Source: a virus
Direction: 5' to 3' (one strand)
Virus record (IMG/VR): IMGVR_UViG_3300046001_002852
Coordinates: 1 to 20,073 of that record
Length of the DNA stretch: 20,073 bases
Within the stretch, counting starts at the first letter, position 1. Each line of letters begins with the position of its first letter. The position numbers were made by a program, and so were the translations under genes. Of the stretch, positions 2,694 through 12,642 are shown piece by piece. The notes under the pieces were generated by a model. It was not told the DNA's origin. It saw only the letters and a list, made by a program, of their open reading frames with translations, and ran no database searches.

Positions 2694-4421
2694 ATGACAG
2701 TCCGCAGATACTCCTCCATCTCCCAAGAAACATCACTTACAGCACCGCTAAATGCAACTGCTACCACAATGGTAGTAAACTCAGCAGCGGTACTAGGAAG
2801 CATCACACCTGGTTCTGGTGAGCGCTTTACTCTTGTTATTGACCCAGATACAGCCCTTGAAGAAATTGTCTATGCCACATCGCCTAGTTCTCCTTCCAGC
2901 ACAACGATAACCATTATCCGTGGTGTTGATGGAACTGGTACAGAAGGTGTTTCCGGTGTAGCCCACTCAGCAGGAGCCAAGGTTCGTCACATGGCTATCG
3001 GTGTTGACTTCCGTGAGGCTAACAACCACATCAAGAATGAAACGACTGCACACGGGTTGACAATTGCTGATGTAATTACAACTACAAATACAAAAACAAT
3101 TACTAATAAAACAATTAGTGCAGCAGATAATACCCTTACTGGTGTAGCAACCTTAACAGGATCACAGACCCTAACTAACAAGACTCTTACTACTCCAACA
3201 ATTACCAGCCCAACCATTACTGGTACTGGCACTATCGCTGGTACTTTCACAGGCAACCTCACTGGCAACGTCACTGGTAACGTATCAGGAACCTCTGGTT
3301 CAACCACAGGTAATGCTGCTACAGCCACAGCCCTAGCCACTGCTCGTACATTCCAATTGACTGGAGATGTAGAAGCAAGCGGAGTAACCTTCGATGGAAC
3401 TGGCAACGTAAGCCTTACAACTGTAATTGGTACTGGAGCAATTGTTAATGCTGATGTTAATAGTTCTGCTCAGATTGCTTACAGTAAGTTAAATCTTACT
3501 AACACTATTCTAGATGCAGATGTTAACGCCTCTGCTGCTATTGCTTGGACAAAGATTGCTCCATCATCTACAGTATCTGCCACAGAACTTGGATACCTTG
3601 ATGGTGTAACTTCTGCAATCCAGACTCAATTGGATGCTAAGTTGGCTACAGCCACAGCGGCAAGCACATATGCTCCGCTTGCTAGCCCTGCTCTTACTGG
3701 CGTACCTACTGCTCCAACAGCGGCTGCTAATACCAATACAACACAGGTTGCTACAACTGCATATGTTCAGACAGAACTTGCTGACCTTATCGGCGGTGCT
3801 CCAGGAGCACTTGATACCCTTAATGAGTTGGCTACTGCACTTGCTAATGATGCTAGTTATTCAACAACAATAACTACTGCACTAGCAACCAAGTTGCCAC
3901 TAGCAGGTGGCACTATGACTGGTTCTATTGCTATGGGAACCAACAAGATTACAGGTCTTGGTGACCCAACTAATGCACAGGATGCAGCAACTAAGAACTA
4001 TATTGACACAGCATCAATTGCTCCAAGCAACTTGACTGGTCCTATTACCTCTGTCGGTCCTGCAACATCTGTAGCATCACAGACAGGTACTGGCAGCAAG
4101 TTCGTAATGGACAATACTCCAACACTTATTACCCCTGTGCTTGGTGTGGCTACTGCTACGTCTATCAACGGTACAACTATTCCAACTAGCAAGACTCTTG
4201 TGGCTACAGACTCTACAGAATATGTAGTACCTAGCCAGACTGGTAACTCAGGCAAGTACCTGACTACAAATGGAACTGTATCTTCTTGGGGTGTCGTAGA
4301 TGCTTTGCCAAGTCAGACAGGAAATGCAGGAAAGTATTTAACCACAAACGGAACAGCCGCTTCGTGGGAAACAGTGACAACCGACCCAACAGCCGACATC
4401 TTTATGATGATGGGCGCCTAA
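2694..4421 (+). CDS. Repetitive phage tail fibre protein
   Basis: A 575-aa fibre. Residues 1-100 carry an attachment-type beta module also found in the preceding protein. The rest is the low-complexity Thr/Ala/Gly/Asn shaft typical of phage fibres: LTNKTLTTPTITSPTITGTG, GNLTGNVTGNVSG, ATELGYLDGVTSAIQTQLDA, LASPALTGVPTAPTA and GGTMTGSIAMGTNKITGLGD. These are recurrent motifs of long fibre and collar proteins. The last ~50 residues hold two 26-aa repeats (PSQTGNxGKYLTTNGT). It would trimerise and project from the tail; the host receptor cannot be inferred. No chaperone or peptidase domain is visible. The start lies three bases after the adaptor stop, downstream of GAGG. Confidence 0.85.
   Translation: MTVRRYSSISQETSLTAPLNATATTMVVNSAAVLGSITPGSGERFTLVIDPDTALEEIVYATSPSSPSSTTITIIRGVDGTGTEGVSGVAHSAGAKVRHMAIGVDFREANNHIKNETTAHGLTIADVITTTNTKTITNKTISAADNTLTGVATLTGSQTLTNKTLTTPTITSPTITGTGTIAGTFTGNLTGNVTGNVSGTSGSTTGNAATATALATARTFQLTGDVEASGVTFDGTGNVSLTTVIGTGAIVNADVNSSAQIAYSKLNLTNTILDADVNASAAIAWTKIAPSSTVSATELGYLDGVTSAIQTQLDAKLATATAASTYAPLASPALTGVPTAPTAAANTNTTQVATTAYVQTELADLIGGAPGALDTLNELATALANDASYSTTITTALATKLPLAGGTMTGSIAMGTNKITGLGDPTNAQDAATKNYIDTASIAPSNLTGPITSVGPATSVASQTGTGSKFVMDNTPTLITPVLGVATATSINGTTIPTSKTLVATDSTEYVVPSQTGNSGKYLTTNGTVSSWGVVDALPSQTGNAGKYLTTNGTAASWETVTTDPTADIFMMMGA
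3252..3287 (+). repeat. 12-bp tandem repeat in fibre shaft
   Basis: Three imperfect 12-base units of the form GGCAACxTCACT encode GNLTGNVTGNVS. They sit in the most repetitive part of the fibre shaft and could expand or contract by slippage. Confidence 0.6.
4230..4385 (+). repeat. Two 78-bp in-frame repeats at the fibre C-terminus
   Basis: Two 26-codon units begin at 4230 and 4308. Both encode PSQTGNxGKYLTTNGTxxSW, differing mainly in third positions and in the last few residues. The protein repeat is clearer than the DNA repeat, which suggests an old duplication kept by selection on the protein. Confidence 0.75.
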
Positions 4422-4441: not shown

Positions 4442-4762
4442 ATGGCAAAGAAAGTACTTGGGCAAGTAAACCCATCTGCAACAACCGCAACAACGCTATA
4501 CACAGTACCATCTGCTAAGAGTGCAGTTATCTCATCTCTTACAGTGTGCAACCAGGCATCAACCTCTGCTACCTTCCGTATTGCAGTACGTCCTGCTGGT
4601 GCTACTCTGGCTGCTGTTCACTATGTAGCCTATGACGTTGCAGTCGGTGCTGCTGATACAACTTGTCTTACATTGGGCATCACACTTGCTACAACAGATG
4701 TAGTAACTGTCTACGCTTCAACAGCAAACATCTCTTTCCACGCCTACGGCGACGAGTCCTAA
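4442..4762 (+). CDS. Small beta-rich virion-like protein
   Basis: A 106-aa protein with a good ribosome-binding site (AAGGAG, in CTAAGGAGAAATAC before the ATG). It begins MAKKVLGQVNPSATTATTLY and continues with alternating hydrophobic strands (AVISSLTVCNQ, FRIAVRPAGATL, HYVAYDVAV, GITLATTDVVTVYAST), ending ISFHAYGDES. This is a single jelly-roll-like or beta-sandwich domain of the kind seen in tail-associated or decoration proteins of environmental phages. There is one Cys in each half and no signal peptide. Function is inferred from fold style and position between the fibre and the paralogue cassette. The stop overlaps the next ATG (TAATG). Confidence 0.65.
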   Translation: MAKKVLGQVNPSATTATTLYTVPSAKSAVISSLTVCNQASTSATFRIAVRPAGATLAAVHYVAYDVAVGAADTTCLTLGITLATTDVVTVYASTANISFHAYGDES

Positions 4763-5349
4763 TGGCAATCACTAGAGCAAGAACCTCTAGTGTTGCACAG
4801 GGGCCTTCAACTAGAAAGACTGTACTAGGTGGCAATGATGTCATCCTAGGTGGAAGTTATGATTATATAGACCACGCAGTTGTTGGTGCTGGTGGGGCTA
4901 CTTCTGTTTCCTTCACTTCAATCCCTGGAACCTATAAGCATTTGCAGATTAGAGGAATTATGCGTTCAGCAAATTCTGCAAATAATCCTTTGCGCTTTAA
5001 TTCTGATTCTGGCAGTAATTATACTTGGCATCAACTTCAAGGAGATGGAAGTGGTGCTTCGAGTTATGCGAATGCTCCAGTCAACGGCGTTCGGTGGGGC
5101 TTGAATAGCGGGAATTCAAGTTATCCTTTTGCAACCATCATTGACATTTTAGATTATGCTAATACTAATAAATACAAAACAGTTAGAGCATTATCGGGCA
5201 ACGATGGAACTGGTGATACAAGTAGCCGCATAGGTCTTTATAGTGGCGTATGGATGAATACTGCAAACGCTATCACAAGTATAACCATAACAAATGATGG
5301 AAACACAATGCTTCAACACTCGCACTTTGCCCTATACGGAATTAAATAA
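4762..5349 (+). CDS. Paralogue cassette member A: beta-rich tail/adhesin-type protein
   Basis: A 195-aa protein whose ATG is in a TAATG overlap with the preceding stop; the frame is open upstream but that extension lies inside the previous gene. A short N-terminal tail (residues 1-35) precedes the domain shared by the next five genes: VSFTSIPGTYKHLQIR, a sugar-binding-protein-like NSDSGSNYTWHQLQGDGSG, FATIIDILDYANTNKYKT, AITSITITND, and a C-terminal LYGIK. The set is not a family I can name. The beta-rich, Ser/Thr/Asn-rich composition and location after the fibre suggest a virion surface or receptor-binding protein. Its closest relative is the gene at 6355. Confidence 0.7.
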   Translation: MAITRARTSSVAQGPSTRKTVLGGNDVILGGSYDYIDHAVVGAGGATSVSFTSIPGTYKHLQIRGIMRSANSANNPLRFNSDSGSNYTWHQLQGDGSGASSYANAPVNGVRWGLNSGNSSYPFATIIDILDYANTNKYKTVRALSGNDGTGDTSSRIGLYSGVWMNTANAITSITITNDGNTMLQHSHFALYGIK

Positions 5350-5358
5350 GGAGAAACA

Positions 5359-5832
5359 ATGCCAACACAGACATACACTCCTATTGCAACTAATACACTT
5401 ACTGCAGGAACTACAACGGTTTCATTTACTTCAATTCCTGCTACTTATACTGATTTAGTATTAGTTATAAATGCAGGCACTAACGTAGGTTACGCAGTAA
5501 GACTAAATGGGGACAGCGGTAGCAATTATTCCTTCACTCGTTTATATGGTAACGGTTCTAGTGCAGTTTCAGACCGAGGCACTAATACAACAGACTTGAC
5601 CAGTAACTGGGGTGGTGGCACTAACAACATAATTACTGTACAAGTTATGAATTATTCAAACACTACTACATACAAAACAGCATTAACGCGTATTGGCGAT
5701 AATACTTATGCAGTTGGTATGACTGGTTTATGGCGTAATACAGCCGCAGTTAACCAAGTTAGTATTACTGCTTCGGCAAACTACGGCGTTGGCTCTACCT
5801 TCACCCTGTACGGTATTAAGGCTGGTTCATAA
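5359..5832 (+). CDS. Paralogue cassette member B: beta-rich tail/adhesin-type protein
   Basis: A 157-aa member of the cassette with an AAGGAG ribosome-binding site in the 9-base gap. It carries VSFTSIPATYTDLVLVINAG, NGDSGSNYSFTRLYGNGSS, QVMNYSNTTTYKTALTRIGD, GLWRNTAAVNQVSI and the terminal STFTLYGIKAGS. The DLVLV strand, the NYSNTTTxKT turn and the -IxAG- ending place it closest to the gene at 6913. It has no N-terminal tail beyond a dozen residues, so it is nearly all domain. Role as for its neighbours: inferred surface-exposed virion component, not a recognised enzyme. Confidence 0.7.
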   Translation: MPTQTYTPIATNTLTAGTTTVSFTSIPATYTDLVLVINAGTNVGYAVRLNGDSGSNYSFTRLYGNGSSAVSDRGTNTTDLTSNWGGGTNNIITVQVMNYSNTTTYKTALTRIGDNTYAVGMTGLWRNTAAVNQVSITASANYGVGSTFTLYGIKAGS

Positions 5833-6353
5833 TGGCATTTACATATAGCAAACTAGCCGAGGTAACTGTTGGTTCTGGTGGTGCTGCCACTATTGTCTTT
5901 AATAATATACCTCAGAACTACAATGATTTAATTGTAAAAATATCTGGTCGCTCTGCAAGTGGAGGAGCCGTAGGAACCGAAGGTATTACTTTGGAAATAA
6001 ATGGTTCTGCATCCAATTTTAGCAGTAGGCAATTATACGGAGATGGCGCTACTACTGGGTCAAGTTCAAAAACAACCACCTATACTGGAGCAAACTTAGT
6101 TACGGGTTCAGGAACTGCGTCTACTTTTAATAATACAGAAATTTATTTTCCTAATTATACAAGTTCTTCTAACAAAAGTTTTTCTATAGATAATGCTCTT
6201 GAAAATAACGCTACATCGTCAGAACTAGATATGACAGCAAATCTTTGGTCAAATGTAACCGCTATTACTTCTTTAACTTTTAAGACAATTAGTGGTTCAA
6301 ACTATGTCCAACACTCAACTGCCACACTATATGGCGTGAAAGCAGAGGTATAA
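5832..6353 (+). CDS. Paralogue cassette member C: beta-rich tail/adhesin-type protein
   Basis: A 173-aa cassette member. Its ATG overlaps the previous TAA (TAATG), with AAGG upstream. Key stretches are IVFNNIPQNYNDLIVKISG, NFSSRQLYGDGATT, TASTFNNTEIYFPNYTSSSN, DNALENNATSS, AITSLTFKTISG and the terminal TLYGVKAEV. The YxPNYTSS and ENNAT segments are shared only with the gene at 7455, which marks those two as a pair. The middle third differs strongly from members A and B, as expected for diversified loops on a shared scaffold. Confidence 0.7.
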   Translation: MAFTYSKLAEVTVGSGGAATIVFNNIPQNYNDLIVKISGRSASGGAVGTEGITLEINGSASNFSSRQLYGDGATTGSSSKTTTYTGANLVTGSGTASTFNNTEIYFPNYTSSSNKSFSIDNALENNATSSELDMTANLWSNVTAITSLTFKTISGSNYVQHSTATLYGVKAEV

Positions 6354-6354
6354 G

Positions 6355-6909
6355 ATGGCTGTTACTAGACTAACTACCAATGGTTTAACTGGTACTAAGT
6401 ACGACATTGCATCTGCTGACAACTACTATATGGAGCCTATTGCTACCACGCTACTAGGGTCTACTGCTACCACCATTACCTTTAGCAATATCCCACAGGG
6501 ATACAAAAACCTACAGATTCGTGCTATTGCAAAAGCAAGTGGTTCAAACTTTAACCCTAAAATGCAGTTTAATGGGGATACAACTAGCAGTTATTCTTGG
6601 CACTACATCTACGGTGATGGCAGCACTGCAATAGCAGGAGCAGGTGCAACTCAATCATTTATTTACAACAGCATTATTTCTACAAATGCAAGTATGTACA
6701 ATGGATTTGTAATTGATATTTTAGATTACACCAATATTTCAAAATTCAAAACTACTAAAGAACTTAGCGGACAAGATAGAAACGGTAGCGGAGAGATTGC
6801 CTTGTGGTCTGGTAACTGGCGCAACACTAGTCCAATTACAAGCATTACATTTTCCAATGGAACATTTGACACCAACTCACGCTTCTCACTATATGGAATT
6901 AAGGGGTAA
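6355..6909 (+). CDS. Paralogue cassette member A': beta-rich tail/adhesin-type protein
   Basis: A 184-aa protein starting one base after the previous stop, behind AGAGG. Like member A it begins MAxTR and has an N-terminal tail of about 25 residues. It then shows ITFSNIPQGYKNLQIRAIAK, NGDTTSSYSWHYIYGDGS, FVIDILDYTNISKFKT, LSGQDRNGSG, PITSITFSNG and RFSLYGIKG. The LQIR, YxWH, IDILDY and LSGxD motifs are shared with the gene at 4762 and not with B, C, B' or C'. This identifies it as the second copy of the A gene. Confidence 0.7.
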   Translation: MAVTRLTTNGLTGTKYDIASADNYYMEPIATTLLGSTATTITFSNIPQGYKNLQIRAIAKASGSNFNPKMQFNGDTTSSYSWHYIYGDGSTAIAGAGATQSFIYNSIISTNASMYNGFVIDILDYTNISKFKTTKELSGQDRNGSGEIALWSGNWRNTSPITSITFSNGTFDTNSRFSLYGIKG

Positions 6910-6912
6910 CAA

Positions 6913-7455
6913 ATGTCTAAGACTGCTACCTATGCTTTGATTGAAAGCCAAGTTCTTGGTTCCACTACAGCATCAGTTACCTTTAGTTCAATTTCATCAA
7001 GTTATACAGATTTAGTTTTAGTAGTTAATTTTAGAAGCGCTTCAACAGGCGATACTAGATGCAGTGTTAGAGTAGGTAACGGTTCAGTTGATACTGGAAA
7101 TAATTACTCAGTCACTGCTCTTGTAGGTTCTGGTACTACTGCATATTCTGGCCGTGACTCTAATCGTTCTAATTTTGACTCCTATATAAACGAAGCAGAA
7201 AGTACTAGTTCAGAATTTTCTCTAAACATTTTTCAGTTTATGGATTATTCAAATACTACTACTAACAAAACAGTACTCATTAGAGAAAATACACTTAATG
7301 TTGGTTCTGGAATGAACCCTGGAACTGCCGCTGTTGTAGGCTTATATAGGTCTACCGTTGCTCTTAATACTATTCAAGTATTTGATTTAACGGGTAAAAG
7401 CATTGCTTCTGGCTCAACCTTTAGGCTCTACGGAATCCAGGCAGGTAACGCATAA
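6913..7455 (+). CDS. Paralogue cassette member B': beta-rich tail/adhesin-type protein
   Basis: A 180-aa protein with AAGGGG upstream and a three-base gap. It carries VTFSSISSSYTDLVLVVNFR, VDTGNNYSVTALVGSG, FQFMDYSNTTTNKTVLIREN, VVGLYRSTVALNTIQVFD and STFRLYGIQAGNA. The DLVLVVN, DYSNTTTxKT and -GIxAG- segments tie it to the gene at 5359; it is longer because of an inserted loop around residues 85-110. Its stop overlaps the next ATG as TAATG, exactly as B overlaps C. This matching junction supports duplication of the whole block. Confidence 0.7.
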   Translation: MSKTATYALIESQVLGSTTASVTFSSISSSYTDLVLVVNFRSASTGDTRCSVRVGNGSVDTGNNYSVTALVGSGTTAYSGRDSNRSNFDSYINEAESTSSEFSLNIFQFMDYSNTTTNKTVLIRENTLNVGSGMNPGTAAVVGLYRSTVALNTIQVFDLTGKSIASGSTFRLYGIQAGNA

Positions 7456-7967
7456 TGCCATTACAACTATACAAGATAGCGTCAAATGATTTAACAGCAT
7501 CTACTGCAAGCGTTACCTTTAGTTCTATACCGCAGGGTTATACTGACTTGAAGGTTGTTATATCATCCAGAACCAATCGTGCAAACGCAGTTGATTCTTT
7601 AGGATTTTATTTTAATGGCGATGCAACCGTTGCACGTTACACAACCAAGGTTTTATACGGTACGGGTACGGCTGTTGCTAGTAATTCACCAAGCACTGTA
7701 AATGATGAAGCAATGTTTACTTCTGGTGATAGTGCAACTGCAAGTACCTTCGGAAATTCTGAACTCTATATTCCAAACTACACAAGTAGCAATCAAAAAT
7801 CTGCATCTGTAGATAGTGTTGGCGAAAACAATGCCACTACTGCTCGTATGAATATAGCGGCAATTTTGTATAATCAAACAACAGCAATTTCTTCAATAAC
7901 ATTTATACCAATTACTGGTACTACAATTCTAGCCAACTCAACATTCACTCTCTACGGCATACTATAA
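7455..7967 (+). CDS. Paralogue cassette member C': beta-rich tail/adhesin-type protein
   Basis: A 170-aa protein, the last of the six. It shows VTFSSIPQGYTDLKVVISSR, FNGDATVARYTTKVLYGTG, TASTFGNSELYIPNYTSS, DSVGENNATTAR, AISSITFIPITG and STFTLYGIL. It pairs with the gene at 5832 through TASTFxNxE, PNYTSS and ENNAT. The C-terminus is two to four residues shorter than in the other members. It probably ends the cassette, because the next gene has a different composition and its own ribosome-binding site. Confidence 0.7.
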   Translation: MPLQLYKIASNDLTASTASVTFSSIPQGYTDLKVVISSRTNRANAVDSLGFYFNGDATVARYTTKVLYGTGTAVASNSPSTVNDEAMFTSGDSATASTFGNSELYIPNYTSSNQKSASVDSVGENNATTARMNIAAILYNQTTAISSITFIPITGTTILANSTFTLYGIL

Positions 7968-7982
7968 AGAAAAGGAAACACA

Positions 7983-8216
7983 ATGACAACACCAACAGCA
8001 ATCGAAGTTAACTGCGCTACAGGCGAAGTTACAGAACGCGAACTAACAGCAGAAGAAATCGCACAGCGTGAGGCAGATGCAGCAGCATATGCTACCCAAA
8101 AGGCAGCAGAAGATGCAGCAGCAGAAGCACTCGCTGCACTCAAAGTATCTGCTCGTGCAAAACTGGTAGCAGGTACACCTCTTACCGAAGAAGAAGCAGC
8201 AACACTCGTTCTCTAA
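7983..8216 (+). CDS. Small Ala/Glu-rich helical protein, possible fibre accessory
   Basis: A 77-aa protein with AAAGGA upstream. It begins MTTPTAIEVNCATGEVTERE followed by LTAEEIAQREADAAAYA, a highly charged Ala/Glu helix that probably forms a coiled coil over residues 22-58, and ends VAGTPLTEEEAATLVL. The opening, a short beta hairpin followed by an acidic helix with AAxxA repeats, is typical of small proteins encoded next to phage tail fibres, some of which act as fibre assembly factors. No specific family is claimed. Confidence 0.6.
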   Translation: MTTPTAIEVNCATGEVTERELTAEEIAQREADAAAYATQKAAEDAAAEALAALKVSARAKLVAGTPLTEEEAATLVL

Positions 8217-8247: not shown

Positions 8248-10224
8248 TTGGCTGGCCAAGATATTACCGAGGGTTTACCCCTCAACGTAGGTAATCCTGG
8301 AACAAGTGGATTCTGGACCAACAGAGCAGAGGACTATGACGTAGCCTTTGGTGGTATCCCATTCTTCATGGCTCCAACGGATCAGAATCCGTATCAGCGT
8401 GAAACTGCACCATACCGCAAGGAACAGTTTGACAACTCAAGAGAACCAGGCGAGCAGTCCTTAACAGGCTGGTGGATTCGTTCTCAGTCATCTTTCCACG
8501 GTGGAGCAGGAATCAAGTTCTATGACCCATCAGCAGGTGAGTCTATTGGCTACCGCTACTTTGATTCACAAGGTGTTAATCCTTGGGTAAAGGGTCAAGT
8601 AACCCTGCTTAAAGATACCACTAATGTGCATGCAACAACTGGTGCAGTAACTGGAACCGATCACCAACACCCAAATCAGCATGTTCGCTCTATTCAATGG
8701 AGTAGCACCAATGGTGTATTAGTTCACGATGAGTTTCATGTAGATAAAATTGCTGCTGATGGAACAGTAACTGCCTTTGTTGAGTATACAAGTGGCACAG
8801 ATGAAAAGGTTTATGCTATCTGTGATGATGGTGTTTTTGCCTATTGGGTAACTAATAAGGTTGCTGGCGGTGCTAATAAACTTCACATGTATAAAAAAGC
8901 ACTAACCGATAACACAACAACTATTCCATCTCCTGTGATTACAGCAACTGGCGTCGTTATTGTGTATGCTGCTATGGAGTTCGTTAAGGACCGTATTATC
9001 TTATGCGTTAACAACTCAGTCTATGAACTATCTACGGCTTCAACAACATTACCCTCAGCAATCTATACTAACCCCAACACAAACTATCACTACACTTCTG
9101 TTGCCGCATCTGGCCCTGCTATCTACACCGCAGGTCATTCAGGTATTTATTCAACTATTCAGAAATATACTTTAGGAACTAACGGCGCTATGCCAGTCCT
9201 TACGCAGGCTGTAGTTGCCGCTGAGTTCCCACCAGGGGAAATAGTCGAAAAAGTCTACTACTACCTAGGTTACATGCTTATCGGAACCAGCAAGGGTCTG
9301 CGCGTTGCCAATGTTAACGATCAAGATGGTTCTCTTGAGTATGGTCCTCTTCTCTTTGAATCAACCCAGCCAGTCTATGACGTAGCATGTGCTGATCGTT
9401 TTGCATGGGCTACTACAGGTGTAGGTTCTAACGCTGGTCTTACCCGTGTAGATCTCAGCCAACTTATTGAAGGTGAGCCACTTCGTTTTGCTTATGCAAA
9501 TGACATAATAGGAGTCCAAACAGGAACACGCTTTACTACAGGTGTTTCCTTTATTGGAACAACTAATCGCTTAGCCTTTGCTAGCGCTCATCAAACTACT
9601 AATGGAGCAGTCTATTTAGAGTCAGCATCTACTTTGACAACAAGTGGATACCTGCAAACAGGTGCTATTCGTTATGGCACACTAGAGCCAAAGAACTTTA
9701 AGTTAATCCGTGCTAGAGGTGAGTTCACCAATGGTGCTATGGACATCCAAACAGTGGAAGAAAACGGCGATATCAACAACGTTATCTCTTACAATGTTTC
9801 AGTCGGCACACCAGAGGCAGCAACTACCCAGCCAGAAGAGTCACAAGAATTCCTATCCTACAGATTTACGCTCTCACGTAGCGCAAGCGATACCAGTAAA
9901 GGACCCGTGTTTAAGGGCTTCCAAGCAAAAGCGCTTCCTGCAACTAAGCGCCAACGGTTGATTCAGTTCCCCGTATGGTGCTTTGACGTTGAGAAAGACC
10001 GTTATAACGTAACGACTGGATATGAAGGCCGTGCGTGGGAGCGTATTCAACTATTAGAAACTATCGAAGCAGAGGGCGATATTGTCAACGTCCAAGACTT
10101 CACAACAGGAGAACGTGTGCAAGCAATTATTGAGCAAGTGCAGTTCTCTCGCAAGACACCACCTAGTGGAAACTTCTCTGGGTTTGGTGGTTTGCTCACA
10201 GTAACAGTCAGGACTGTCTTATGA
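8248..10224 (+). CDS. Large minor tail / baseplate-type structural protein
   Basis: A 658-aa protein initiated at TTG. Residues 1-120 contain FFMAPTDQNPYQRETAPYRK and QSLTGWWIRSQSSFHGGAGI, a segment I associate with actinophage minor tail proteins. Residues 140-450 contain repeated short strand units (VYAICDDGVFAYWVTN, AIYTAGHSGIYST, MLIGTSKGLRVANVND, FAWATTGVGSNAGLTRVDL, NRLAFASAHQ) that look like beta-propeller blades. Residues 450-658 form a beta-rich C-terminal region ending [10 protein letters not shown]. It probably forms part of the tail tip or side fibre. The propeller is inferred from strand spacing. The stop overlaps the next ATG (ATGA). Confidence 0.7.
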   Translation: MAGQDITEGLPLNVGNPGTSGFWTNRAEDYDVAFGGIPFFMAPTDQNPYQRETAPYRKEQFDNSREPGEQSLTGWWIRSQSSFHGGAGIKFYDPSAGESIGYRYFDSQGVNPWVKGQVTLLKDTTNVHATTGAVTGTDHQHPNQHVRSIQWSSTNGVLVHDEFHVDKIAADGTVTAFVEYTSGTDEKVYAICDDGVFAYWVTNKVAGGANKLHMYKKALTDNTTTIPSPVITATGVVIVYAAMEFVKDRIILCVNNSVYELSTASTTLPSAIYTNPNTNYHYTSVAASGPAIYTAGHSGIYSTIQKYTLGTNGAMPVLTQAVVAAEFPPGEIVEKVYYYLGYMLIGTSKGLRVANVNDQDGSLEYGPLLFESTQPVYDVACADRFAWATTGVGSNAGLTRVDLSQLIEGEPLRFAYANDIIGVQTGTRFTTGVSFIGTTNRLAFASAHQTTNGAVYLESASTLTTSGYLQTGAIRYGTLEPKNFKLIRARGEFTNGAMDIQTVEENGDINNVISYNVSVGTPEAATTQPEESQEFLSYRFTLSRSASDTSKGPVFKGFQAKALPATKRQRLIQFPVWCFDVEKDRYNVTTGYEGRAWERIQLLETIEAEGDIVNVQDFTTGERVQAIIEQVQFSRKTPPSGNFSGFGGLLTVTVRTVL

Positions 10225-10424
10225 CAATTACTGAGTGGGCTGGTTTTTTCGTAGCGCTGATGACCCTGATCGTAGGGTTTACAGGTTTTGTTCGATGGTT
10301 AGTTAAGCACTATCTATCAGAATTGAAACCAAATGGGGGTAGTTCCGTGAAAGATCAAGTAAACCGATTGGAAACACGCGTTGACCAAATCTATCTCCTC
10401 CTCTGTGAAAAGGAAAGCAAGTAG
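10221..10424 (+). CDS. Small membrane protein, holin-like
   Basis: A 67-aa protein with one clear transmembrane segment at residues 6-30 ([20 protein letters not shown]), a short basic stretch, and then a cytoplasmic-type amphipathic coiled-coil helix at residues 43-63 ([19 protein letters not shown]). This is the layout of many small phage lysis-cassette membrane proteins. It overlaps the tail gene as ATGA and opens the lysis region. One membrane pass plus a coiled coil could be a class III holin or an antiholin. This cannot be settled from sequence. Confidence 0.6.
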
Positions 10425-11721
10425 ACTAGGAGTTCTTCTTCTAGCAGTAGGAACATCGTTCCTCTTCCCAGCACTAGCAAACGGTGTTATGGTCTCAAAT
10501 GTACAGATTACCTGTACCACTGCCGACGGCGGCGAGACTAGAACTTCTAACACTGGCTGGGATAATAGTAATAGTTTTTTTGATGGTAAGGGTAGTATTC
10601 CCCGACTGTATTGTGAGGGAGGATTCAATGGACGATTCACTGTTTATATTAGTGACAGTCTTTCTGATGATTCTTTTCGTTACTATAATGGTGTAATCCC
10701 TACCCCTGCTGTAGATCCCAGTTCTGAGACTGGAACCGTTGTCTCTGAAACTCAAACTGTAAATTCTGAGACTCCAACTGTTGAGTCAGAAACTTCAACT
10801 GCTCCCGAGCCTCAACCAAGTCCCTCTCCGAGTCCTTCAATAGAAGATTCTCAGACTGTAGTTGTTGCACCTGCTGACACAGTAACTGCAACTGAGAGTG
10901 CAACCGTTGAAACGCAGACTCCAGTTTCCGATACTTCAACTCCTGTACTACCAGTAGAAACATCAACGGTAGATACCCAAACAGCAGAATCAAATCCAAC
11001 ACCTGTGGTTACTCCTCTTCCCGAGCCAACGCCAATAGTACAACCAGAGCCAATAGTGGTATCGCCACCAAGACCAGAACCTGAGCCACAGCCTCAGCCA
11101 GAGCCACAACCTGAACCATTACCTGAACCTACTCCAGAGCCTGTTGAACCTGAGCCTGAGCCAGAACCTGAGGTGGTTGAACCAGAGCCAGAGGAACCCG
11201 AAGTTCCTGTAGAGCCAGAGCCTGAAATTGACGAACCAGTAGATGAACCAGAGATCGTAGAGCCTGAGGTTCCTGCGGAACCAGAGGAGCCTATTGAGGA
11301 ACCTGAAATTACGGAGCCTGAGATCGTTGAAGAACCAAAGCCACTTGAGCCTGAACCTGTTCAACCTGAGCCTCCTGTAGTTACACCTGAACCCACAGTA
11401 CCAGAGGTTGTTGTACTAAGTGAGTCGACAGACCTTAGCGTGTTGCCCCCTGATACGCCCGTAGAACTGCCTAACGGCGTCGTTCTTACGGCTGAGGTGG
11501 TAATCGCTTTAACCCTATTAGAAAATCCTGCAGAACTCCTTGCAGAACTATTTACTGACCCAGCGCAAGTCCTCACCGCCCTATCAAACATTGGTGCTGA
11601 CATGTCACCTGAGGTCAGAGAAGAATCAGAAAAGGTTATAATTGCAGCAGTTATTGCTGGAAACATAGCCACCCAAGCAGCAGCCGCTGCCTCTCTAGCC
11701 GCATATAGAAGGAATCCCTAA
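10381..11721 (+). CDS. Secreted Pro/Glu-rich stalk-like protein in the lysis cassette
   Basis: A 446-aa protein if read from TTG 10381; GTG at 10405 (438 aa) is an equally plausible start, and neither has a strong ribosome-binding site. Residues 9-34 are a signal peptide (basic KRKASR, a hydrophobic core, then PALANG). Residues 35-105 form a small domain with two Cys (45 and 78) that could form a disulfide. Residues 110-230 are Thr/Ser/Glu-rich. Residues 231-340 are PEPEP-type repeats expected to be extended and acidic. Residues 345-446 are helical and end in a hydrophobic segment ([20 protein letters not shown]) followed by YRRNP. I know no family match. A wall-spanning or surface stalk role is inferred. 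The 5' end overlaps the preceding holin-like gene. Confidence 0.65.
11071..11400 (+). repeat. Pro-Glu codon repeat region
   Basis: About 110 codons made mostly of CCx GAx dipeptide repeats (EPEPEP, VEPE, EEPE). The units are degenerate at the third base. The region encodes an extended acidic stalk and also creates several long but spurious antisense ORFs. Confidence 0.8.
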
Positions 11722-11891: not shown

Positions 11892-12133
11892 TGGATACAT
11901 TAAAAAATGTAATGATGAGAATTTTTGCTGTAATCGCAGCAGAATCTCTAGGAGTAATCGGTGCTGGCTCATTGGTTGGCATCGAAGTATGGCAGGCAGC
12001 AGTACTGGCTGGTGCACTAGGTGCAGCACGAGTACTTGAAGCCCTTGCCCGTTTCTACCTAGCAGACGGAAGCCTGACATCAGAAGAAATCAATGCAGCC
12101 TTTGCTAAGGTTGACAAGAAAGCGGGAGAATAA
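11891..12133 (+). CDS. Putative phage holin (r1t-like layout)
   Basis: An 80-aa protein, placed directly before the endolysin with a TAATG junction. It has a short amphipathic N-terminus (MDTLKNVMMRIFAVIAAESL), two hydrophobic Gly/Ala-rich segments at residues about 10-32 and 34-52 (VWQAAVLAGALGAARVLEAL), and a charged C-terminus (TSEEINAAFAKVDKKAGE). This layout resembles small actinophage holins and the r1t-type group, whose members let the endolysin reach the wall. Position makes it the leading holin candidate. The family assignment is from pattern only. Confidence 0.65.
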   Translation: MDTLKNVMMRIFAVIAAESLGVIGAGSLVGIEVWQAAVLAGALGAARVLEALARFYLADGSLTSEEINAAFAKVDKKAGE

Positions 12134-12642
12134 TGGGACAAAGATTAAACTTTATTGCAGTAGCCCGAGGAGAACTCGGCGTTGTTGAAGGTCCAAAAGA
12201 AAACGAAACTAAGTATGGTGCTTTCACTAAGGCTAACTTCCAGCCTTGGTGTGGCTCTTTTGTAAACTGGTGTGCTAATGAGGTTGGGCTAAAGATCCCT
12301 AACTGCGTATACACACCTGCAGGCGCATCTGCCTTCATGAAGAAGGATCAGTGGGAAAAGGCTGAGGAAGCAATTCCTCTACCAGGAGATATCGTATTCT
12401 TCGATTTCCCAGGAGATGGCGTCGACAGAATCTCACATGTTGGCATTGTCGTTAAAGATAACGGCGATGGCACAGTCACCTGTATCGAGGGCAACACCGC
12501 TCCAGATAAGAAGGGTGACCAGCGAAACGGCGGAGAAGTTTGCCGCAAGATTCGCGCCTACAAGAAAAAGAATGGCTCTAAACTCCGTAGGTCACAGGTC
12601 GTGTCCATCGTCGGATTTGGTAAGCCAGTCTTCAAGTCATAA
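12133..12642 (+). CDS. Endolysin with CHAP-type amidase/peptidase domain
   Basis: A 169-aa peptidoglycan hydrolase. The CHAP (NlpC/P60-like) catalytic signature is clear: Cys40 in PWCGSFVNWC, the turn LPGDIVFFDF at 83-92, His102 in ISHVGIVV, and a polar third residue at Glu119 or Asn121 in CIEGNT. It would cleave stem-peptide or cross-bridge amide bonds in the host wall at the end of infection. No signal peptide is seen, so release should depend on a holin. The basic C-terminus (RAYKKKNGSKLRRSQ) may help wall binding, but no separate binding domain is recognised. It starts in a TAATG overlap with the putative holin. Confidence 0.9.
   Translation: MGQRLNFIAVARGELGVVEGPKENETKYGAFTKANFQPWCGSFVNWCANEVGLKIPNCVYTPAGASAFMKKDQWEKAEEAIPLPGDIVFFDFPGDGVDRISHVGIVVKDNGDGTVTCIEGNTAPDKKGDQRNGGEVCRKIRAYKKKNGSKLRRSQVVSIVGFGKPVFKS

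Follow-up and report, generated by a model that had tools for sequence, protein, structure and literature searches.

A recurrent cassette of three paralogous genes in freshwater phages as a probable tagged, hetero-oligomeric receptor-binding tip

The receptor-binding tips of phages are usually homotrimers or single adhesins. This report concerns a locus of six related genes, arranged as two successive three-gene cassettes (A-B-C-A-B-C), on a linear virus fragment of 20,073 nucleotides (IMG/VR record IMGVR_UViG_3300046001_002852, positions 1 to 20,073; hereafter the window, meaning this whole stretch), which comes from a freshwater phage. Taken as a whole, the evidence presented here is probably best explained if each A-B-C cassette encodes one tagged hetero-oligomeric receptor-binding tip, a physical complex that we infer from the genes. 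What is new is the combination, in tailed phages, of a strict set of three paralogues, numbered tags that unrelated adhesins carry as well, and a remixing that is precise to the gene.

Several described systems resemble this arrangement in part. In the virophage DSLV2, three consecutive tail proteins are reported to form a 1:1:1 heterotrimer with a receptor-binding head (PMC12724248). Three consecutive related genes kept as a set are also found here, but the DSLV2 proteins are gp37-like in the sense of T4, belong to a virophage, and are described in a main text from which the words paralog and tandem are absent (PMC12724248). The proteins described here differ in being of another predicted fold class and from tailed phages, with tagged slots, an interchange with glycine-rich (Gly-rich) adhesins and arrays of one to three cassettes, and their complex is proposed from gene organization. 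The gp38 protein of T2/S16/PP01-type phages is an adhesin made from one gene; it attaches to the fibre by its N-terminus and recognises the receptor through a Gly-rich part that has variable loops (PMC12892980). Likewise, the proteins that occupy equivalent slots in relatives of the window phage are PF21722 proteins, but the window A, B and C proteins have no Gly-rich domain and stand as three genes in place of one. Tailspikes of the Ackermannviridae are homotrimers that branch via N-terminal adaptor domains. Several exchangeable receptor-binding proteins are displayed together in the branched complex of these phages (PMC11414711), with one gene per tailspike there as against tags of ~25-35 amino acids (aa) and three-gene tips here. 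Finally, the Pam3 gp24 fibre joins TNF-like beta-sandwich and Gly-rich receptor domains to an N-terminal docking part and has a dedicated small chaperone, gp25 (PMC9608196); it differs from the present case in being a homotrimer made from one gene.

The six plus-strand open reading frames that a sequence-only reading of the window had described as a duplicated three-gene block were all recovered where it placed them (listed below). Their products are mutually homologous, with 15 of 15 pairs far above chance (shuffle Z 8-39), and pair across the array as had been proposed. Specifically, reciprocal best BLAST matches join genes 1 and 4 (46% identity), 2 and 5 (40%) and 3 and 6 (41%), all other pairs being 26-35% identical, and a tree of the six supports these pairs at 95, 94 and 99.5% bootstrap, against 0% for the neighbour pairs 1-2, 2-3, 4-5 and 5-6. 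The pairing thus came through the very comparison on which that reading had staked it. The scaffold VxFxxIPxxYxDL...LYGI, said to be common to all six, is present but not invariant, as gene 5 has SIS for SIP and gene 3 ends in LYGV. The TAATG at both B/C joints is likewise real, but it had to be discarded as a sign of cassette duplication, being common at all junction types and found also where the preceding 106-aa gene meets A (position 4762). The functional block exceeds the interval first marked (4762-7967), adding an upstream fibre-associated gene (4442-4762) and a downstream cassette-linked small gene (7983-8216). Its features, with the fibre and lysis genes that flank it, are as follows.

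2694..4421, plus strand: tail fibre stalk, 575 aa (PHROG tail-fibre matches to 1e-25).
Within 2694..4421, plus strand: C-terminal end of the tail fibre stalk (...DPTADIFMMMGA), a candidate docking site for A tags.
4442..4762, plus strand: sp106, a small fibre-associated protein of 106 aa directly before slot 1 (PHROG tail-fibre matches; kept ahead of the slots; candidate tag-docking partner).
4762..5349, plus strand: A1, type-A subunit of cassette 1 (typed as A by a hidden Markov model (HMM) margin of 91 bits; groups with A2 at 95% bootstrap).
4762..4857, plus strand: A1 N-terminal address tag (MAITRARTSSVAQGPSTRKTVLGGNDVILGGS), position 1 of 2 (same tag elsewhere only in two-cassette arrays, on their position-1 A).
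5359..5832, plus strand: B1, type-B subunit, tagless, with the domain from residue 1 (pairing, HMM typing, array mapping).
5832..6353, plus strand: C1, type-C subunit, tagless (pairing, HMM typing, array mapping).
6355..6909, plus strand: A2, type-A subunit of cassette 2, a predicted lectin/galectin-like beta-sandwich (HMM typing; AlphaFold predicted local distance difference test (pLDDT) 88.3; best match VIA, Z 7.5; galectins 6-7).
6355..6432, plus strand: A2 N-terminal address tag (MAVTRLTTNGLTGTKYDIASADNYYM), position 2 of 2 (same tag on position-2 A elsewhere, 57-100% identity; low-confidence, i.e., flexible, in the model).
6913..7455, plus strand: B2, type-B subunit, tagless (pairing, HMM typing, six-gene tree).
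7455..7967, plus strand: C2, type-C subunit, a predicted lectin/galectin-like beta-sandwich (HMM typing; AlphaFold pLDDT 91.8; fold neighbours as for A).
7983..8216, plus strand: s77, a small protein linked to the cassette and a proposed chaperone of ABC assembly (linkage to ABC loci).
12133-12642: CHAP endolysin.

Scans of viral contigs gathered hundreds of relatives, of which 256 loci were analysed, with trees built by FastTree. These loci yielded 542 distinct domains, counting the six of the window; 181 are of type A, 181 of type B and 179 of type C, with one left ambiguous. The three types form pure clades (support 1.0, 0.91 and 0.94) that hold 541 of the 542 domains, and they represent ancient subfamilies. 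Their order is strict. A deduplicated set of 171 contigs comprises 127 with a complete single ABC, 12 with (ABC)2 and 4 with (ABC)3, the remainder being mostly cut by contig ends; steps between neighbours run from A to B (180), from B to C (185) and from C to A (24), with one weakly typed domain before A and no other order. Array genes all share one strand, the gaps between them are mostly near zero, and the A-B-C order also holds in 80 loci that were found solely via the downstream 658-aa neighbour (L177-L256). A-B-C therefore recurs in related phages, where the sequence-only reading had suggested looking for it, as a strict unit in arrays of one, two or three cassettes, in about 150 viral contigs besides the window, which carries this widespread module in its two-cassette version. 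The domain is also encountered in other settings. A single A- or B-type domain ends stalk-type fibre proteins in L201, L205, L223 (its second A) and L245, possibly an ancestral form, and the 1909-aa tail protein of Erythrobacter phage XM05 (L346, 62-5788) has an ABC-type domain at residues 1297-1457, which places the domain inside large fibres as well.

B and C consist of the domain from residue 1, and A alone has an N-terminal extension, of 20-35 aa. This tag is specific to position, reading MAITRxKTSSVAQGPSTxKxLLxGNxVILGGS at position 1 of 2 and M(A/S)(V/I)T(R/K)LTTNGLTG(T/S)KYDxxSADNYYMEPIA at position 2 of 2, with three further A tags in (ABC)3 arrays. The A2 tag is the low-confidence part of its AlphaFold model (pLDDT <50 at residues 1-5, 7-10 and 17-21), as a docking peptide would be expected to be. 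Relatives that lack ABC have Gly-rich proteins (PF21722 Gly_rich_2, 1e-17 to 4e-21; GLY below) at this place, many of them bearing the same tags. Three-slot phages are arranged as GLY-GLY-GLY (9), GLY-GLY-ABC (18) or ABC-ABC-ABC (6). The first 22 aa of a slot's first gene point to the right slot in 97 of 99 cases by nearest neighbour in another genome, and still do so in 74 of 99 when the neighbour is restricted to the other effector type (null mean 33, maximum 47, in 500 permutations). Tags match across effectors almost completely at slots 2 and 3, and tag sharing between effectors was seen in the three-slot phages and in one other two-slot pair (GLY in slot 2 of L060, A in slot 2 of L019). 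Since the same slots and tags hold either GLY or ABC, one A-B-C cassette replaces one adhesin gene. This equivalence and the strict recurrence of the cassette support the earlier proposal that the genes encode three different types of subunit, which stay together as a set and are present in two versions at a receptor-binding locus. A third, unrelated effector type (GNAxDFGDL motif) lies behind the same kind of LVGN tag in L188 (266-1216 and 1219-2145).

In anchor loci, s77 is present in 20 of 20 with ABC vs. 7 of 60 without, at a median of 15 nucleotides (nt) after C, and a different gene of ~123 aa (phrog_7759) accompanies Gly-rich slots. The 60 C-terminal aa of the fibre follow the two-slot or three-slot class of the phage (identity 0.85 and 0.78 within classes, 0.67 between), although the fibre N-terminus does not, and sp106 is similarly class-specific (0.92 and 0.81 within, 0.68 between), unlike the other neighbour genes. 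An N-terminal fn3 domain is found on variant A proteins, and variants of B and C end in a Gly_rich_2 domain, which argues for A being phage-proximal and B and C distal, towards the host. Added C-terminal Gly_rich_2 domains were noted on the B and C proteins of two larger phages, L025 (an 86.9-kb contig) and L034 (129.5 kb).

No significant sequence match of A, B or C was found in Pfam, NCBIfam or solved structures, none of the six window proteins has a Gly_rich_2 Pfam match, and the sole match in family lookups is a weak one that links A2 with the C-terminal part of phrog_35103 (2.6e-8). For the Gly-rich slot-mates, sequence searches gave no convincing solved relatives. The AlphaFold models of A2 and C2 (92-sequence alignments) are both all-beta and share solved neighbours, namely GH32 C-terminal modules (Z to 7.6), galectins (6-7), and legume and ERGIC-53 lectins (~6), and A and C are accordingly predicted to be lectin/galectin-like beta-sandwiches. 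Among predicted viral proteins, the same fold is common in those of phages whose annotation includes Stf repeats, collagen, fn3 or Gly-rich parts; phage tail families missing from these fold lists were not counted as excluded. Further matches of C2 include the C-terminal domain of Pgp3 (Z 7.0) and, more weakly, C1QL2 (Z 6.2). The A, B and C chains of C1q carry three paralogous beta-sandwich heads that make one heterotrimer, a parallel in how such a tip might work and one for which no relationship is claimed.

Under the explanation we favour, a cassette would give rise to one hetero-oligomeric tip, most likely 1:1:1, of three paralogous lectin-like beta-sandwich subunits. A would be the docking subunit, its flexible N-terminal tag directing the tip to one particular place on the tail-fibre complex (the fibre C-terminus and/or sp106), and the tagless B and C would join through A. 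The window phage would thus have two addresses, both filled by A-B-C tips, where relatives put single-gene Gly-rich adhesins at equivalent addresses. The receptor would probably be a surface glycan, and s77 probably helps ABC to fold. Several observations weigh against this explanation. Sharing of tags is weak at slot 1, where 6 of 6 A tags have a slot-1 GLY match but no more than 3 of the 27 GLY tags have a slot-1 A match. Database searches with the window's own two tags recovered only two-cassette-type arrays and no Gly-rich counterpart, so that the joint occurrence of a shared genomic slot and a shared N-terminal tag with a Gly_rich_2/gp38-type adhesin was found for relatives but not for the window's tags. 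The fibre end and sp106 are candidate docking partners on the basis of a class association that may reflect linkage. The fold matches are middling (best Z 7.5-7.6; no Foldseek E <1e-3) and, as none reaches Z 8, 'lectin-like' denotes a fold class, not a family. Lastly, distance correlations between subunits (0.35-0.41) are above permutations, but in two-cassette arrays those within a cassette are not clearly stronger than those across cassettes, and co-evolution is therefore not used as proof of subunit contact.

The alternative that fares best, which we nonetheless regard as unlikely, is that A, B and C each form a homotrimer, giving three heads per cassette that are kept together for three receptors or for assembly order. 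The same domain does stand alone at the C-terminus of stalk-type fibres, which are normally homotrimeric (L201, L205, L223, L245), and Pam3 gp24 provides a homotrimer with TNF-like and Gly-rich domains (PMC9608196). However, B and C would be left without any docking extension, one A-B-C set stands in for one single-gene adhesin at a tagged slot, and complete arrays virtually never lack one of the types.

The cassettes also carry traces of exchange. In 27 cassette pairs one gene is at least 75% identical and another less than 55%. L136 and L140, for example, share a B that is 99.1% identical over 555 nt (B with ~40 nt on each side) in an 84% background, with differing A and C cores, while L037 shares its A with L136 and its C with L140. 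Among 133 cassettes, inter-cassette DNA matches peak at the joints, with 960 (A/B), 1366 (B/C) and 1699 (C/end) high-scoring segment pairs against core minima of 22, 19 and 11, peaks to which functional conservation of gene ends may add. By these sequence patterns, the subunit genes pass singly from phage to phage, at conserved junctions. About a dozen contigs have a free-standing open reading frame in a joint, and all 10 that were tested score as HNH_3 endonucleases over the Pfam cut-off, which suggests intronless homing as one driver of exchange. HNH-type genes lie in A/B, B/C or C/A joints of L007 (5483-5938 and 6441-6875), L035 and L132 (two joints each), and there are further such insertions in L027, L028, L058, L101, L107, L130, L156, L212 and L234. 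If the tip model holds, subunit cores would evolve through recombination that respects gene limits at the conserved junctions, with HNH endonucleases lodged there as its probable driver at times, and recombining A, B and C would change receptor specificity. The fullest form of this model, in which heterotrimeric lectin-like tips with exchangeable subunits, numbered tags shared with unrelated adhesins and HNH-driven precise swaps together constitute combinatorial addressable adhesins in phages that infect abundant bacteria of fresh water, is offered tentatively, as somewhat less than probable. Conversely, the strict order could be a mere by-product of homology-guided recombination at type-specific joints, with no physical complex, as the joints are the main DNA common to cassettes and the single-gene swaps are precise. 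We consider this improbable, for it does not account for why the three types are equally numerous, why they persist across different phage backbones, why only A is tagged or why a cassette is equivalent to one adhesin gene.

A role as structural or decoration proteins of the capsid or tail tube, without receptor binding, is very improbable. Small beta proteins are typical decoration folds, and no catalytic or receptor motif was recognised, but the locus sits in a hypervariable slot between the tail fibre gene and the lysis genes and is interchangeable with Gly_rich_2 adhesins, a context that disfavours capsid decoration in particular.

The two cassettes of the window are 46, 41 and 40% identical, which puts their distances at the 59th, 90th and 85th percentile of all cassette pairs. 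Each of their genes has its nearest relatives in other phages: A2 is 78% identical to L126, B1 73% to L087 and C2 70% to L167, with A1 and C1 nearest to the first cassette of L171 (56-58%). In a comparison of 13 two-cassette arrays, cassettes resemble those at their own position more than those at the other (p<=0.001); together with the position-specific A tags, this indicates that the two positions are old, distinct lineages. As such, the sequence-only reading's duplication of the cassette and divergence finds no support for this genome; a recent tandem duplication in this lineage, leaving two near-redundant versions, would account for the repeated order and the pairwise paralogues but is scarcely credible, the copies being no more alike than cassettes of unrelated phages, not each other's closest relatives, and distinct in tag and lineage by position.

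Only LanE43-AprE7 and LanE43-AprF5, among phages of the annotated collection, have A, B and C; both are cultured phages of 'Ca. Planktophila' (PMC10202952). E7 (OX376640) has the order fibre, sp106, GLY, GLY, A-B-C, s77, with A-B-C at 25320-26913, and in F5 B, C and s77 have the same lengths and scores as in E7, with A cut by the record end. Owing to synteny with these phages, the window phage most likely infects an actinobacterium related to 'Ca. Planktophila'. A search of genome contigs with B1 returned one contig only, in a Polynucleobacter metagenome-assembled genome (L343); this non-actinobacterial bin holds ABC and s77, with A split between frames and containing an ambiguous residue, possibly an assembly error. 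If the proposed model is true, phages of the Actinobacteriota that dominate fresh water could assemble and reshuffle their specificity out of three parts, and the A tags would offer a defined, natural plug-in docking system. With E7, F5 and their host 'Ca. Planktophila' LanE-43 in existence, and the cassette in both phages, this is directly testable.

The remaining window genes are of the tailed phage type and, besides the tail fibre and the CHAP endolysin, include those for a PD-(D/E)XK nuclease, a DnaB-like ATPase, a Toprim protein and a sigma-70-like factor. Downstream of s77 lies a 658-aa phrog_11667 protein of unknown function (8248-10224), 33-35% identical to proteins of Streptomyces phages and often adjoining the variable slot, and directly ahead of the lysis genes is a protein of 446 aa that contains a long stretch of Pro/Glu repeats (10381-11721).

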